Positions 323-32,301 of a DNA stretch of 33,384 nucleotides are shown here, one piece after another; position 1 is the first letter of the stretch; every line of letters starts with the position of its first letter. Origin of the DNA: an uncultured Ruminococcus sp. (GTDB taxonomy: Bacteria > Bacillota > Clostridia > Oscillospirales > Ruminococcaceae); assembly GCA_947177205.1 (NCBI GenBank), contig CAMWTO010000008.1, positions 1-33,384 of the forward strand. The letters are read 5' to 3'. Below the pieces are notes generated by a model. It was not told where the DNA came from. It saw only the letters and a program-made list of their open reading frames with translations, and did no database searches. A program made the translations under genes and the position numbers.

Positions 323-2054
323 TCGTGTAACGGATTACGCTGAAAAAGTCTGTTCAGGGCAAGTTATTAGCGGAAAATTCCACAAACTGGCTTGTGAACG
401 TCATCTCAATGACTTGGAACGGCAGAACACAGAAGATTTTCCGTATTACTGGGATTGCGAATCGTCCGAACGAGTTTTGGAATATGCGGAAATTTTAACG
501 ATTGCTGAGGGTGATAAGCCTAAGCCATTACAGCTTATGGAGTATCAGGCGTTTGACATTGGTTGCACTTTCGGATGGAAAAAATCATCGAACGATAAAA
601 GGAGATTTCGTAGAAGATACAAGTCCATTTCAAGGCAACAGGGAAAATCCATGGAAAACGGTATTTTGGGAACGTATATAGCTGGCTTTTCAGGCTATCA
701 GCACGGAAAGCTTTTCGCAGCAGCACCAAAAAGAAAACAGTCCAAAATTGCTTGGGAAGAGATGATGAAGTTTATACAAGCAGACAGTGACCTTTCTCAA
801 TTTTTCAGGATTCAAGAATACAAGCATTTGATTACAGCGTTAAACACAAATTGTACAATCGAAGCAGTTAGCCGTGATTCTGGAGCTGATGACGGTTTTA
901 GACCTATTTTTTGCTCACTAGATGAAATACATCAAATGCGTGACAACAGCATCTATAAGGCTATGTATAACGGAACACGTTCGTTGCCAGAAACTTTGAT
1001 TTCCATGATTACAACCAGAGGAAAAAGACTAAATTCTTTCTGTTTTGAAATGGACAAGTATGCACGTGATATTCTGATGGGATTGCACACAGCAGATGAT
1101 TTTTTTGTGGATATTTACTGCTTAGATGATGATGACGACATCTGGGACGAAAAAAACTGGATTAAAGCTTGCCCTTACACTTGTGCCGACCCTGAGCGTT
1201 TAAAAATTCTTCGGCAAGACGCACAGACCGCAAAAGATATGGGCGGTTCTGACTTGGCTGATTTCTTGTGTAAATCTTTGAACTTGTGGGTAAAAAATGC
1301 TGATGACAATTTCATTAATCCTGAATCGTGGAAAGCATGTGGTTCTAAGCGGAATTTACAGGAAACTTCAAAACAATATAAAAAATGCTATGTTGGTATC
1401 GACTTATCCCAAAGTGGAGATTTGACAAGCATAGCGTTAGTTTTCCCTCTTGGAAACGGCTTGTATTACATTTACAGCCACAGTTTCATGCCACGTGGTA
1501 GATTAGATGAACATCAGGAGACAGATTTAGCACCTTATGCCCTGTGGGAGCAACAAAAATTGTTGACCGTAACAGGCGGTGCTATGGACTTCATGAACGA
1601 TTACGGTTTCATTATTAGGCATTTGTCAGAGCTGAAAGAAAAATTCAAGCTAGAATTTTTAGGAATCGGCATTGACCCACATAACGCAGGCGGTGTTATG
1701 GAAAATTTAGAAAATTTTGGGTGTCCTGTTGTGACTATCACACAAAGTGCGAGAAGCTTGAACGATGCAACTAGAAAAGTGCAGTTACTAGTAAAAGGAC
1801 ATAAATGTGAATATGACGAAAAGAATGAGCTGTTGACGTGGAGTATGGTGAATGCAGCTGTTGTAAATAATTCTTTCGGCGAAATTAAGGTTGACAAGAG
1901 ACGTAGGAACGGACACAAGGAAGAATGCAAACGTATTGACCCTGTTGATGCCGTGATTGATGCATTTGCATTAGAGGACATGAACAAGCCATCCGAAATT
2001 ACTAGTCTTGACGAAAACCTTGAAAAATTCCTGAAATTCATGAATTGGAAGTGA
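315..2054 (+). CDS. terL: Terminase large subunit
   Basis: ~580 aa. SRQQGKS Walker-A-like segment, SLDEIHQM Walker-B-like, nuclease-like GIDLSQSGDLTS and DPVDAVIDAFAL. Start 303 or 315 (MVDRVTDYAEKV). Confidence 0.9.
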   Translation: MVDRVTDYAEKVCSGQVISGKFHKLACERHLNDLERQNTEDFPYYWDCESSERVLEYAEILTIAEGDKPKPLQLMEYQAFDIGCTFGWKKSSNDKRRFRRRYKSISRQQGKSMENGILGTYIAGFSGYQHGKLFAAAPKRKQSKIAWEEMMKFIQADSDLSQFFRIQEYKHLITALNTNCTIEAVSRDSGADDGFRPIFCSLDEIHQMRDNSIYKAMYNGTRSLPETLISMITTRGKRLNSFCFEMDKYARDILMGLHTADDFFVDIYCLDDDDDIWDEKNWIKACPYTCADPERLKILRQDAQTAKDMGGSDLADFLCKSLNLWVKNADDNFINPESWKACGSKRNLQETSKQYKKCYVGIDLSQSGDLTSIALVFPLGNGLYYIYSHSFMPRGRLDEHQETDLAPYALWEQQKLLTVTGGAMDFMNDYGFIIRHLSELKEKFKLEFLGIGIDPHNAGGVMENLENFGCPVVTITQSARSLNDATRKVQLLVKGHKCEYDEKNELLTWSMVNAAVVNNSFGEIKVDKRRRNGHKEECKRIDPVDAVIDAFALEDMNKPSEITSLDENLEKFLKFMNWK

Positions 2055-2058
2055 TAAT

Positions 2059-3306
2059 ATTTTTGAGAAAATATTTAATAAATTCAAGCAAGGAATCTCA
2101 AAAAAATCTGCATTTCAAAGTAAAACACTCTCACTAAATCAACTAATTGATGCTTTGGGCTTGCAAGACGTAGACAGAAGTGCGTTGAGTGAAGCAACAT
2201 ATTTCGCTTGTTTAAAAGTTTTATCAGAAAGTATCGGAAAATTGCCACTAAAAATCCAACAACAGACTGAAAATAAGGGCATTAGAATTGCAAGAGAGCA
2301 TTTATATTACAGAATGCTGAATGTCCGACCAAACAAGTACACGACAGCAACGGCGTTCTGGAGTACAATGGAGCTGTTCCGCAATCATTTTGGCAATGCC
2401 TATGCTTGGATTGATACCAGAGAGTTGACAGTTCCGCAACTATGGTTAATGCGACCGCAAGACGTGCATATTTGGTATGATAATGCCTGTATACTAGCTG
2501 ACGTGCCTGATGTTTATTATCAGTATAGCACACCAAAAGGTTTACTTGTACTCGGTTCTGAAGAAGTGTTACACGTTCGTTCCCACAACACAATTGACGG
2601 AATTGTGGGAATCAGCGTGCAGGAACAGCTTGCCGGGACAATCCAAAGTAATATCAAAGCACAAAAAATGCTGTCTAAACTTTACGATTCAGGCATGACG
2701 GCAAAGGCAGTTTTGAACTATACAGGTGGTCTCAACGACCAAAATGTCGATACACTGGTTAAAGGCTTTCACGAACATGTAAGCGGAGAAGATTATGGAA
2801 TTATCCCTGTTCCAACAGGTTTCAGTTTACAGCCGTTGAACATGAAACTTGCAGATAGTCAATTTTTAGAGATTAAGCAGTACAGTGCCTTGCAGATAGC
2901 AGCGGCTTTCGGTGTGAAACCATATCAGATAGGCGATTACACAAAATCCAGCTATGCCAGTGCAGAATCACAGCAACTGGCTTTCTTGACAGACACACTA
3001 TTATATATCATCAAGCAGTATGAAGAAGAAATTGCCTACAAGTTGCTGACCGACAAGGAAATGGCGGACGGCTATCATGTGAAATTCAATACCAAGGCAA
3101 TTCTGCGAACCGACCACAAGACCCAGGTGGAAACGCTAACAACCGGTATCGGAAACTTTCTTTATACGCCAAACGAGGCAAGAGAACAGATTGACTTGCC
3201 ATCCATTGACGGCGGTGACACGCTGATCGGCAACGGCAATGCGATTCCGATTCAAATTGTTGGACAGCAATATGTAGATCATGCGGAAACAGGAGGGAAT
3301 CCATGA
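2059..3306 (+). CDS. HK97-type portal protein (track start 2155; true N-terminus probably upstream)
   Basis: Portal pattern (LPLKIQQ...RPNKYTTATAFWSTMELFRNHFGNAYAWI...GVKPYQIGDYTKSSYAS). Coding-like sequence IFEKIFNKFKQGISKKS precedes the track start in the same frame, without ATG/GTG/TTG. Confidence 0.85.
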   Translation: MFEKIFNKFKQGISKKSAFQSKTLSLNQLIDALGLQDVDRSALSEATYFACLKVLSESIGKLPLKIQQQTENKGIRIAREHLYYRMLNVRPNKYTTATAFWSTMELFRNHFGNAYAWIDTRELTVPQLWLMRPQDVHIWYDNACILADVPDVYYQYSTPKGLLVLGSEEVLHVRSHNTIDGIVGISVQEQLAGTIQSNIKAQKMLSKLYDSGMTAKAVLNYTGGLNDQNVDTLVKGFHEHVSGEDYGIIPVPTGFSLQPLNMKLADSQFLEIKQYSALQIAAAFGVKPYQIGDYTKSSYASAESQQLAFLTDTLLYIIKQYEEEIAYKLLTDKEMADGYHVKFNTKAILRTDHKTQVETLTTGIGNFLYTPNEAREQIDLPSIDGGDTLIGNGNAIPIQIVGQQYVDHAETGGNP

Positions 3307-3962
3307 AAATTCAAAAAAATACGGCAATCAGTGAGAGTGAAATTTCAGAATCCGAGCTTGCCGTCATCAATACAATGGCAATGACGGAGCTGAAAGCAGA
3401 GGATATTTTCACATTTAAGGCAATTCTGTGTGATAATCAGGTAGACAGGGACTTTGAAGCATTTTCAGAAACAGCCCTGCATCAGCTTGCCAATTTATTT
3501 GTCGGCAAGCCCGTGATTAAAGATCATCAGCCGTCATCTGACAATCAGATTGCACGGATTTACCGGACGGAAGTCACTCAGGGGCGGTTAATTGCCTACT
3601 GCTACATGATGAGAACCGCCAGGAATGCAGACTTGATTAAAGAAATCCAGGGTGGTATCAAGAAAGAGGGAAGCGTAGGTTGTGCGATTAATGCGAGAAA
3701 ATGTAGTATTTGTAGAGCTGATCTGACAAAAAGTCATTGCAGACATATTCCAGGTAAGACCTATAGAGGACAATTATGTTACTCGGTGCTGTCTGATGCA
3801 CAGGATGCCTATGAATTTTCCCTGGTAGCTGTTCCGGCACAGCGAAATGCAGGCATTAGTAAAAATTTTGATACAGAACAGCAAAAAGCAGATGAGATCC
3901 GGATTCGTTCCAGAATTGCCGGGTTGTATGTAAAAATAGGAGGTAATTCAAATGATGACTAA
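3303..3962 (+). CDS. HK97-type prohead protease
   Basis: Position between portal and capsid. Segments VDRDFEAFSE, GKPVIKDHQPS, and EFSLVAVPAQRNAGI typical of U35/HK97 proteases. Confidence 0.75.
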   Translation: MKIQKNTAISESEISESELAVINTMAMTELKAEDIFTFKAILCDNQVDRDFEAFSETALHQLANLFVGKPVIKDHQPSSDNQIARIYRTEVTQGRLIAYCYMMRTARNADLIKEIQGGIKKEGSVGCAINARKCSICRADLTKSHCRHIPGKTYRGQLCYSVLSDAQDAYEFSLVAVPAQRNAGISKNFDTEQQKADEIRIRSRIAGLYVKIGGNSNDD

Positions 3963-5073
3963 GAAAATGCGTGAGTTGCAGACCGAAATCCTGAAAAAGA
4001 CGAACGCTGCACAAGCTTTGATGGAAGAAGAAGTCAAAGATGTAACAAAGGCGACCTCTTTGCTGGACGAAGCGGATGAACTCAAGAGAGAATTTGATAC
4101 GCTTGCCAGGATTGAAAATGCCGAAAAAGCAAGTGTTCCGAATGAGATTGCCAAAAAAACAGATAGTTCAGGTTTTGCCCTGATTTCTAAAATGCTTTCT
4201 GGTAAGCACTTGGATCAGACAGAAAAAGCCGCATTAATCACCGGAACGGATGCCGCAAATGGCGAAAATTTCTTAATTCCGGAAGATGTCCGGCTGGAAA
4301 TCAACGAACTCAGACAGTCGTACATTTCCGCCAAAGACATTGTGACGATTGTGCCGACGTTTGGCTTGACCGGTTCGGAGAACTACGAAGCAAACGCTCC
4401 GGCAGGACTGATTGCATTTGACGACGGCGAAGATGTTCCAGATGCTGCTCTTCCGAAATTCATCAAGAAGAATTTTGCAATTAAATGGTATGGCAGTCTG
4501 ATTCCAATTTCTAACATCCTGGTTGGTGCGGAAAAAGCCGGACTGATGAGCTATTTGAACAACTGGTTTGTCAAAAATGCAATTATTACAGAAAATTCCG
4601 CTATTTTTGACGCACTAAAAAGTGGCTACAATGCAGGAACACCTAAGGCGGTTGCCGGATGGCAAGCCCTGAAAAGCTCCATCAATAAGGATTTAGACCC
4701 GTCCTGCCTGATTAATGGCATGATTATTACGAATCAGAGCGGATTTGACTGCCTGGATAGTGCGACGGATGCCGATGGCAGACCAATTTTGCAGCCGAAT
4801 CCGGCAAGTGCAACAGAATTGTTATTCCAGGGATTGCCGATTAAAGTATTTCCGGATACACAGCTTGCTAATATTGATGCAACGCATTTCCCGATTTTCT
4901 ACGGTGACACCAAGGCAGGTTGTAAGTTCATTGAATACCAGTCTTTGCAGTTTGCATACTCGGAGCATTTCGGTTTTGGCAAGAACCAGAACTACATGCG
5001 TGTGATTGAGGGATTTGACATCATGAACGCTGACACGTCTGCCTACATCTATGGCAGTCTGAGTGCAGATTAA
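3952..5073 (+). CDS. HK97-fold major capsid protein with N-terminal coiled-coil scaffold domain
   Basis: N-terminal coiled coil, then FLIPEDVRLEINELRQSYISAKDIVTIVPT...FGKNQNYMRVIEGFD. Position downstream of protease. Confidence 0.85.
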   Translation: MMTKKMRELQTEILKKTNAAQALMEEEVKDVTKATSLLDEADELKREFDTLARIENAEKASVPNEIAKKTDSSGFALISKMLSGKHLDQTEKAALITGTDAANGENFLIPEDVRLEINELRQSYISAKDIVTIVPTFGLTGSENYEANAPAGLIAFDDGEDVPDAALPKFIKKNFAIKWYGSLIPISNILVGAEKAGLMSYLNNWFVKNAIITENSAIFDALKSGYNAGTPKAVAGWQALKSSINKDLDPSCLINGMIITNQSGFDCLDSATDADGRPILQPNPASATELLFQGLPIKVFPDTQLANIDATHFPIFYGDTKAGCKFIEYQSLQFAYSEHFGFGKNQNYMRVIEGFDIMNADTSAYIYGSLSAD

Positions 5074-22043: not shown

Positions 22044-22559
22044 TTATGCTGTTTCTCTGCGTTTAGCCTCTTCATCACATTTGCGACGCTCCAATTCTTC
22101 GCCGACCGTGCCACAATATTCCATTGGGCTTTCATTTGTAGTTTGCTGGATTTGCAATTCAGATGCGTGCGGATTTGATTCATTTTGTTTAACTGTTTCT
22201 TCGATGGTTCTAACAAATTTTTCACGTTCCGTAGGGCTGATAGCAATATAGGCTTGAACAATTGCTTTTTCTAATTCCGTAAGATTAAACTCTTGTGCCA
22301 GTCGTGTTAATATATCTGGCTCTTCCATCTTTTTTATTCCCAGAAGACAATCTATCGAGACATTATAAAAATTTGCAAGAATAATTAATGCGTCTATTGT
22401 TGGGTCAGCTTCACCATGTTCGTATTTTAAGTAGGCTTGTTGTGAAATTCCTAAGATGTCAGCAATAGTAGATTGCTTTACATTTCTTTTTTTTCTTAAC
22501 TCAAGGAGAATGTCTCCCCGTTTTTGCATTGCTTCTTTGTCTTTCTTTACCTTTGGCAT
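22044..22559 (-). CDS. XRE-family phage repressor (CI-like)
   Basis: GDILLELRKKRNVKQSTIADILGISQQAYLKYEHGEADPTIDALIILANFYNVSIDCLLG; divergent from early genes with promoter/operator region. Confidence 0.85.
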   Translation of the reverse strand: MPKVKKDKEAMQKRGDILLELRKKRNVKQSTIADILGISQQAYLKYEHGEADPTIDALIILANFYNVSIDCLLGIKKMEEPDILTRLAQEFNLTELEKAIVQAYIAISPTEREKFVRTIEETVKQNESNPHASELQIQQTTNESPMEYCGTVGEELERRKCDEEAKRRETA

Positions 22560-22588: not shown

Positions 22589-22617
22589 ATTATATCACTA
22601 AAAGTTAATTATGTCAA
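22589..22617 (-). promoter_or_regulatory. Repressor promoter TTGACA-17-TATAAT
   Basis: - strand TTGACA (22612-22617), 17-nt spacer containing AACTTTTAGTGA, TATAAT (22589-22594). Confidence 0.75.
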
Positions 22618-22718
22618 TATAAAGTTGTATAAAATTTATTTTTATCCTTAAAAGTTGTCAGTTTTTCACAAATAACAACTTTATTTTTAGTTAAATCTCT
22701 AAAAGTTGTTTTATGCTA

Positions 22719-22747
22719 TTGACATATACAACTTTTTGTGATAGTAT
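22719..22747 (+). promoter_or_regulatory. Early rightward promoter TTGACA-17-TAGTAT
   Basis: TTGACA 22719-22724, 17-nt spacer containing CAACTTTTTGTGA, TAGTAT 22742-22747. Confidence 0.65.
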
Positions 22748-22802: not shown

Positions 22803-22994
22803 ATGACTTCTGATGAGAAAATTCTGAAAATTGCCGATATTACAGCCGGAACTAACATTGATGCTAAACAACTGGCTACCTTATTGGCAATAATGGGGAA
22901 ACTTAGTCCTTGCGACGTTGCAAAAGTTGTATGGATGGCTATCGGGACGGCGAATACGTTGGGATGTGTAAACGGAGAAAACGGACAGGAATAA
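22803..22994 (+). CDS. Small early protein, unknown
   Basis: 63 aa; start ATG 22803 with upstream GGGGGG-rich SD; first gene after early promoter. Confidence 0.55.
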   Translation: MTSDEKILKIADITAGTNIDAKQLATLLAIMGKLSPCDVAKVVWMAIGTANTLGCVNGENGQE

Positions 22995-23035: not shown

Positions 23036-23059
23036 CAGCTCCGGATCATTCCGGAGCTG
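23036..23059. other. Perfect 10-bp stem hairpin CAGCTCCGGA-tcat-TCCGGAGCTG
   Basis: T-run only on the - strand side, so it could be a - strand terminator or a structural element upstream of the repeat unit. Confidence 0.6.
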
Positions 23060-23075: not shown

Positions 23076-23107
23076 GTTCCGCCCCTTGTGGGCGTGTGAG
23101 TTGAAAT
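23076..23107 (+). CRISPR. Solitary type I-C-like CRISPR repeat unit (single copy, no array)
   Basis: GTTCCGCCCCTTGTGGGCGTGTGAGTTGAAAT, 32 nt. CGCCC-cttgt-GGGCG stem; 3' end GTTGAAAT resembles the I-C GGATTGAAAY handle. Antisense translation ISTHTPTRGGTQ resembles spurious CRISPR-derived ORFs. Confidence 0.6.
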
Positions 23108-23239
23108 GACCATGCTACGTTCAGTTATAAATTGAATGGAATAAGACCATTCACATTGGAACAAGGTCTGACAATTTGGAAAACATTTTTTTATGATATT
23201 CCGATTGATGAGTTATTTTTTCACGAGGTGAAACCATGA
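23108..23239 (+). pseudogene. 5'-truncated paralog of the HTH gene at 23453
   Basis: Frame reads DHATFSYKLNGIRPFTLEQGLTIWKTFFYDIPIDELFFHEVKP*, matching ...RTFSNKLSASIGFSLEQGLTIWKTFFSDVPIDELFRKE*. No start codon or HTH N-terminus upstream. Confidence 0.75.
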
Positions 23240-23415: not shown

Positions 23416-23452
23416 TCAAACGTGGTAAACCACTGTTTAGGGAGGGATTAAA

Positions 23453-23671
23453 ATGTCTGTAAGACAAAAAATCGTATATCCGACACTGGAGGCGGAAATC
23501 GCACGACGTGGTATTAAAAAATATGAAATTGCCAAATTTTTGGGTATCAGTCCAAGAACTTTTTCAAATAAGCTGAGTGCTTCAATTGGTTTCTCGTTGG
23601 AGCAAGGTCTGACAATTTGGAAAACGTTTTTTAGCGACGTTCCCATTGATGAATTGTTCAGAAAGGAGTGA
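23453..23671 (+). CDS. Cro-like / XRE-type HTH regulator
   Basis: YPTLEAEIARRGIKKYEIAKFLGISPRTFSNKLSASIGFSLEQGLTIWKTFF; GGAGGG upstream. Confidence 0.75.
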   Translation: MSVRQKIVYPTLEAEIARRGIKKYEIAKFLGISPRTFSNKLSASIGFSLEQGLTIWKTFFSDVPIDELFRKE

Positions 23672-24236: not shown

Positions 24237-24264
24237 GCTAGACACAATTATGAGGACAAAGAAA

Positions 24265-25017
24265 ATGTACGAACTGAAACTGACAAACTTCAACGGCATT
24301 GAGACCATTGACAGCAGACAGGTTGCGGAGGCAACCGGAAAGGCACACAAAAATCTTTTGCAGGATATTCGCACATATTGCGGATATTTAGCTGAGCTGA
24401 ATTTTCAGCTTAGTGATTTCTTCATTGAAAGCAACTACACAGATTCCACCGGCAGGACACTTCCTTGCTACCTCTGCACCAGAAAAGGTTGTGAGATGAT
24501 CGCCAACAAAATGACTGGACAAAAGGGTGTTACATTCACAGCATTGTACATCAACGCATTTCACAAGATGGAGCAGAAGATTGCAAAGCATTACACAGAA
24601 CTGCAAGCACTTGAAATCCGAGCAAAAGCGGACAGAGCCACAGCGATGCGGATCAATGCAGAAAACAGGCGGCTGAAAATGCTGTTAGATAATCCGCATC
24701 TTAAGGAACTATCACCGGAATCACTTGCAGCACTGGGAATCAGCAGAATGCAGGAGACTACCGGGCAGGATCTGAGCCACGCACTGCCGGAAGCCGAAAG
24801 GACTTACAGTGCCACGGAAGTCGGGCAGATGCTAGGTGTTTCTGCCAACAAGATCGGCAAGACCGCCAATGCCTACAACCTGAAAACAAAGGAATACGGG
24901 ATTTTTGTCATTGACAAGGCACGGCACAGCAGCAAGCAAGTCACCACGTTTCGCTATAACATGAACGGTGTATCACGGCTTGCGGATATTCTGGGCGTCG
25001 AGGTAGTGATAGCATGA
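24265..25017 (+). CDS. Rha-like phage antirepressor
   Basis: IDSRQVAEATGKAHKNLLQDIRTYCGYLAELNFQLSDFFIESNYTDSTGRTLPCYLCTRKGCEMIANKMTGQKGVTFTALYINAFHKME. Start 24250 or 24265. Confidence 0.8.
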   Translation: MYELKLTNFNGIETIDSRQVAEATGKAHKNLLQDIRTYCGYLAELNFQLSDFFIESNYTDSTGRTLPCYLCTRKGCEMIANKMTGQKGVTFTALYINAFHKMEQKIAKHYTELQALEIRAKADRATAMRINAENRRLKMLLDNPHLKELSPESLAALGISRMQETTGQDLSHALPEAERTYSATEVGQMLGVSANKIGKTANAYNLKTKEYGIFVIDKARHSSKQVTTFRYNMNGVSRLADILGVEVVIA

Positions 25018-32062: not shown

Positions 32063-32131
32063 TAATATAACAGAAGCCAGCACGGCTTTTCCCCTCATTT
32101 GATGATGTTTCTAGGTTTCAGAAGCATTTCT

Positions 32132-32203
32132 GGCAGAGTAGAGCAATGGCAGCTCGCAAGGTTCATGCCCTTGAGGCAGGCGGTTCGATTCCGCCATCTG
32201 CAA
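32132..32203 (+). tRNA. tRNA with CAT anticodon (Met or lysidine-type Ile2), no encoded CCA
   Basis: Hand fold: acceptor GGCAGAG/ATCTGCA (mismatches at both ends), D-stem GAGC/GCTC with loop AATGGCA, anticodon stem CAAGG/CCTTG with loop TTCATGC, T-arm GGCGG-TTCGATT-CCGCC. Confidence 0.78.
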
Positions 32204-32301
32204 TTGAACATATAGTATAGGAACGCCTTTTCTGTAATACATAGTTATGTTATATGTAATACATGAAGGTGTTCTTTGCTTTTTTATTAGGAGATAAAAA
32301 T

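Follow-up and report, generated by a model that had tools for sequence, protein, structure and literature searches.

What might a lone CRISPR repeat do in the early operon of a phage? The 33,384-nt contig analysed here (the window, meaning the whole stretch of DNA) comes from an uncultured Ruminococcus sp. and holds one repeat-like unit, which a sequence-only reading had proposed to be an RNA anti-CRISPR or a superinfection-exclusion unit. Solitary repeat units (SRUs) and RNA anti-CRISPRs (Racrs) have been known since 2023 and 2,103 viral SRUs have been catalogued (PMC10651486). On the comparisons set out below, the unit is probably a Racr-like RNA anti-CRISPR candidate directed against the type I-C system of its host.

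The phage and its early region

The window encodes TerL, portal, capsid and tape measure proteins and a tyrosine integrase, as well as a VapE/primase, a CI-like repressor, a Rha antirepressor and a PcfJ-like protein, and is a temperate tailed phage. Its ends (positions 1 and 33384) join in frame to form one continuous small-terminase-like ORF, so that the contig probably is the whole phage genome in circular form. The phage also carries a tRNA-Met (anticodon CAT) at 32131-32204.

The early promoter that had been claimed upstream of the unit and on the same strand is present as a sequence match, and the six boxes found between the divergent repressor and early promoters suggest that the operon would be repressed in the lysogen and expressed early in infection; the early promoter is probably repressor-controlled. 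No strong promoter lies directly before the unit, the operon promoter being instead about 330 nt upstream. The first early ORF ends 81 nt before the unit, and Pfam, PHROG and NCBIfam matches named no known anti-CRISPR among the neighbouring ORFs. The hairpin just upstream of the unit is followed by a T-run on the minus strand only and is terminator-like for that strand, while the remnant of an HTH gene begins immediately 3' of the repeat (Table 1).

Table 1. Features of the early region of the window and of the stand-alone unit on another contig of the host assembly
Feature	Location	Strand	Basis
CI-like HTH repressor	22044-22559	-	protein family match
Six AAAGTTGT/ACAACTTT-type boxes, likely operators of the repressor, between the divergent promoters	22601-22736		positions computed, function inferred
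Early lytic promoter, TTGACA-17-TAGTAT, TG before -10	22719-22747	+	sequence match (predicted)
First early ORF, 63 aa, no family match, acr-like position	22803-22994	+	ORF list, profile searches
Conserved island (hairpin, AAAAGCAAATCTGC, repeat) common to the window and the related phage G420:C74	23023-23107	+	
Perfect 10-bp hairpin, CAGCTCCGGA-TCAT-TCCGGAGCTG	23036-23059		sequence
Solitary type I-C-like repeat unit (SRU)	23076-23107	+	repeat comparison, window scan
Remnant of a paralogue of the 72-aa HTH gene, residues 33-70, 66% identity	23108-23221	+	
Small HTH protein of 72 aa; counterpart in the G420 phage 99% identical	23453-23671	+	
Rha-type antirepressor, same early region	24250-25017	+	protein family match
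Promoter, solitary GTTCC repeat and terminator-like hairpin	L124 (G000:C20) 1436-1583		

A solitary mimic of type I-C repeats

The 32-mer, GTTCCGCCCCTTGTGGGCGTGTGAGTTGAAAT, lies exactly where the sequence-only reading had placed it and, with up to three mismatches allowed, has no second copy in the window or elsewhere in the 2.23 Mb assembly. The best repeat-like match in the flanking 200 bp reaches just 15-16/32, which makes the unit solitary and bears out the claim that there is no second repeat at spacer distance. SRUs are delimited by the absence of a second repeat within 100 bp, and none is found there; they are also required to lie on a mobile element, here a contig with phage genes and ends that join in frame, and to share the subtype of the host, here represented by a complete type I-C locus with its array in the same assembly, subject to binning. 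Mini-arrays are defined by at least two repeats around one or two spacers and by a leader, and CRISPR arrays by regularly spaced repeats; the window has a single repeat, and the sequence upstream of it bears no resemblance to the leader of the host array (score 9, p about 0.7).

Contig C11 of the assembly carries a complete type I-C locus (cas3-5-8c-7-4-1-2) and an array of 11 repeats, GTCACGCCTCTCGCAGGCGTGTGAGTTGAAAT, and its Cas5c (encoded at 3268-4098 of that contig), Cas8c, Cas7 and Cas1c score above the NCBIfam cut-offs. Hence, the earlier statement that there are no cas genes is right for the window proteins scanned and does not extend to the assembly, in which the full locus is found on another contig. 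The best match of the host array repeat anywhere in the window is the unit itself (26/32), and in 300 dinucleotide shuffles of the window the match never exceeded 23/32. Bases 16-32 of the unit, the last 17 nt with the whole handle, are identical to the host repeat, so that the host array, with which the sequence-only reading had proposed to compare the 32-mer, has the same 3' half and handle. The array repeat of G267, a genome of the same family, is closer still, with 29/32 identities end to end and a local match of 96.4% over 28/32 nt (87.5% coverage, 48.1 bits), where SRUs are defined by at least 90% identity and at least 90% coverage to a known repeat and a bit score of at least 41.1. Set against the shuffle maximum, the two array matches exclude a chance origin, and at the sequence level the unit resembles genuine type I-C repeats far beyond chance.

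The phage contig was binned and is possibly a free circular genome, so the assignment to this host rests on binning and on the repeat match, and is further supported by the occurrence of the unit in a second species (see below). No spacer against the window phage is present among the nine unique spacers of the host's own array, and none of 96 array spacers from the genus and family gives a convincing match to this phage that would indicate self-targeting. In the host array, one repeat-spacer unit is duplicated (L049 9071-9305; 101 nt identical).

The unit is intergenic, lying between an ORF that ends at 22994 and one that starts at 23236. A minus-strand frame of 157 aa runs over it, and has little in common with its counterpart in the related G420 phage beyond the antisense of the repeat (ISTHTPTRGGTQIC), so that the frame is regarded as spurious and a coding role for the unit as ruled out; the possibility that it belongs to a conserved protein-coding gene, named beforehand as a refutation, did not hold, since the related phage has it as non-coding sequence. 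An Rfam search returned nothing but a tRNA, the GenBank phage collection gave no DNA match, and in IMG/VR neither the full 32-mer nor looser forms of it turned up a relative among the matches listed, one match being set aside because it covers the 3' half alone and looks like chance.

Recurrence in a sister species and elsewhere in the host assembly

A search for the same unit in related phages was successful. A phage on contig CAMWOX010000074.1 (G420:C74), from an uncultured Ruminococcus sp. that is a sister species, carries a near-identical unit (31/32), and in both phages the unit comes after the first early ORF and before the regulator genes, preceded by a CAGCTC...GAGCTG hairpin and GCAAATCTGC. 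The island made up of these elements is flanked on both sides by non-homologous sequence, the homology on the right stopping at the last repeat base. To the left, the repressors share 32% identity and there is no relation between the first ORFs; to the right, homology resumes at 23441 with 89-91% identity. Cas5, Cas7 and Cas8c of G420 are 93, 92 and 82% identical to those of the host, the closest among the five loci compared. When about 85,000 species' genomes were scanned for exact copies of GTTCCGCCCNNNNNGGGCGTGTGAGTTGAAA, the G420 copy alone was recovered (the unit's own genome was perhaps left out), and more relatives may be present in metagenomes.

Another solitary unit, of 33 nt (GTTCCGCCCTACGTGGGGCGTGTGAGTTGAAAT; L124 1524-1556), is found on contig C20 of the host assembly. 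A perfect TTGACA-17-TATAAT promoter lies about 60 bp ahead of it, and a terminator-like hairpin follows after 11 nt. Judging from these signals, the arrangement is the layout of a free-standing small RNA gene. It lies near a tRNA-Thr and a fragment that reads like the end of an integrase (no Pfam match). Related early regions that have no unit in G418, G401 and G411 come from genomes without a Cas8c match, and that in G408 from a genome with a different repeat lineage, all of these assemblies being incomplete.

Further single repeats, GTCGCACCTCGCAAGG..TGCGTGAGTTGAAAT, were seen at L125 (G000:C27) 1480-1557, just after a TelA gene, and at L107 (G422:C86) 1345-1514. They are preceded by a TTGCGAA...GGTTCGCAG inverted motif and, having no cas genes with them, resemble orphan leader-repeat units; the host leader also has TTTGCGAACC. 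The lone repeat of G028:C36 was not counted, being read as a chromosomal cas7-cas4 remnant: at L012/L052 1-469, the end of cas7 is followed by a cas4 broken after about 32 codons at the repeat, which looks like the deletion scar of a type I-C locus. The G028 genome has a second type I-C system with a different repeat.

Stem, handle and a shared lesion at the stem base

Between the host repeat and the window unit, the T-A pair at positions 9/15 has become C-G, and the upper five pairs of the stem are kept with this compensatory change. The two basal pairs are lost: with GTTCC, the basal C3-G21 pair becomes U-G and the one next to it C/U, leaving U3-G21 and C4/U20 where two Watson-Crick pairs stood. 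All three solitary units have GTTCC, whereas the array repeats, of which more than 100 were examined in the genus and family, have GTC(A/G)C. Folding energies are predicted to be -8.5 kcal/mol for the canonical five-pair stem and -9.1 kcal/mol for the best fold of the unit, a shifted register being favoured by a small margin, and -10.6 kcal/mol for the host repeat; these values do not decide the effect of the stem-base change.

Cas5d/Cas5c is described as recognising the repeat hairpin together with the 3' single strand and cutting at the base of the hairpin, which leaves an 11-nt handle (PMC3890593, PMC5965380). By the rule for Cas5d of B. halodurans (PMC3890593), cleavage of the unit would be expected after repeat position 21 (23096/23097), leaving the handle TGAGTTGAAAT. 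In RacrIF1, a mutation of the stem base abolished both binding and inhibition (PMC10651486), and by this precedent the change in the window unit may weaken recognition by Cas5c and reduce function. The same change is common to units in different contexts and may instead turn the RNA into an uncut trap, so that the lesion could cut either way for the candidate function.

An RNA anti-CRISPR candidate and its alternatives

The RNA anti-CRISPR reading thus draws on what the sequences contain: mimicry of the repeat, a solitary intergenic location, an early promoter match, a matching cas lineage and recurrence as non-coding sequence. With its short first ORF, its mimic and a host of the matching subtype, the unit has the anatomy of a type I-C Racr and is taken as a Racr candidate for that reason. 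On infection or induction, the early promoter would be freed from the CI-like repressor, and transcription through the unit would give an early RNA that carries the 63-aa ORF followed by the mimic. The hairpin and handle would then be bound by Cas5c, which is the repeat endoribonuclease of type I-C, and probably by Cas7; with these proteins sequestered on a non-guide RNA, fewer working Cascade complexes would form, which would amount to an anti-CRISPR activity. The array matches, the complete type I-C genes, the kept upper stem, the G420 and C20 units and the genomic background of the unit-less loci argue for this candidate, as does the Racr precedent, which includes a tested type I-C case located directly 3' of an acr gene (PMC10651486). 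The stem-base lesion, the shifted fold register, the lack of a strong adjacent promoter, a host assigned by binning and the lack of a matching host spacer argue against it.

A third related phage, G420:C235, bears on two of the alternatives. In the same early slot (L089 1046-1143), it has a mini-array of one degenerate repeat, a 34-nt spacer and one full repeat, GTCACGCCTTACATAGGCGTGTGAGTTGAAAT, and the sequence upstream shows a likeness to the leader of the host array (score 25, where 500 shuffles reached at most 24). The window unit may hence be imagined as a decayed, non-functional relic of such a phage-borne mini-array that survived by chance, and its damaged stem base and the pseudogene fragment that follows would fit. 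However, three solitary units in different contexts have the same GTTCC form with intact upper stem and handle, and the two phage units have stayed 31/32 identical although their neighbours were replaced, which makes a relic unlikely.

The spacer of this mini-array has a 31/34 match at G418:C225 827-860, in the gene for the CI-like repressor of a different phage of the group, and the repressor of G420:C235 itself has diverged at the matching site. TTC is the usual flanking trinucleotide for type I-C; the target is flanked by CTT, and active targeting of the G418:C225 phage is uncertain for that reason. By analogy, Cas5c might cut the transcript of the window unit, whose handle is identical to that of the host, and the handle plus the phage gene fragment 3' of it might serve as a crRNA-like guide against competing phages. 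There is no second repeat to bound a spacer, however, a search of the host loci gave no target for the following sequence, and the gene remnant of 114 bp is far longer than a 33-37 nt spacer; such a hybrid guide is very unlikely. Superinfection exclusion, the other role proposed in the sequence-only reading, accordingly finds no support at the window unit, which has no spacer and for which the loci searched gave no target, although a sister phage has such a mini-array in its early slot.

Still less probable is that the phage uses host Cas5c as an RNA processor, with a cut at the unit tuning the early operon when type I-C is present: its position inside the early transcription unit, after the first ORF and ahead of the regulator genes, would suit this, but the C20 unit stands alone between promoter and terminator, and no operon that it could regulate is obvious there. 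An attachment or recombination site for integration into the host CRISPR array, which the exact end of homology at the repeat would suit, is scarcely credible in a phage with its own tyrosine integrase and with only 17 contiguous bases in common with the host repeat.

Returning to the RNA anti-CRISPR candidate, a bolder version would regard the three solitary units as a distinct type, in which GTTCC makes an uncut, dead-end Cas5c trap, unlike RacrIF1, which is processed as an ordinary repeat would be, and the early slot as a hotspot in which decoys and mini-arrays against rival phages change places. We consider this version possible, though doubtful.

Relation to known systems and biological meaning

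Among the closest published systems is RacrIC1 of a Bifidobacterium pseudocatenulatum prophage, which acts behind an AcrIC5 homologue on one transcript and is likewise a prophage-borne, solitary, intergenic type I-C unit with a matching type I-C system, placed in the same orientation behind a short ORF (PMC10651486). RacrIC1 is experimentally active and starts 11 nt after a known acr homologue, whereas the candidate has an 81-nt gap and an upstream ORF without family match. RacrIF1, from a prophage intergenic region in Thiocystis, is also a solitary repeat mimic; Cas6f binds and cuts it and is trapped on it along with Cas7f (PMC10651486). In contrast to the three GTTCC units with their stem-base lesion, RacrIF1 is a type I-F element that needs an intact stem base. 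The mini-CRISPR arrays of SPV1 and SPV2 (PMC6858448) are viral repeats without Cas proteins, as is the array of the sister phage G420:C235, whereas the window unit is a single repeat that lacks both spacer and leader. The SRUs catalogued by SRUFinder are likewise intergenic and solitary with a host of the same subtype (PMC10651486); measured against the 90% coverage asked of that set, the best local match of the window unit among the repeats compared falls slightly short, with 96% over 28 of 32 nt at 48.1 bits. The unit is hence a further instance of the known class of SRUs and Racr candidates. Its less usual parts are the shared lesion at the stem base and the slot in which a mini-array can stand in place of the decoy; in the parts of the literature consulted, we found no description of either.

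Type I-C is a common subtype, and in this group of gut Ruminococcus phages the mimic and a matching host system are found together, while no matching system was found in the genomes of the mimic-less relatives. The shared basal-stem change poses a biochemical question, namely whether Cas5c binds such an RNA and fails to cut it. Counter-defence and conflict between phages are linked in this one slot, where decoy and mini-array are exchanged.
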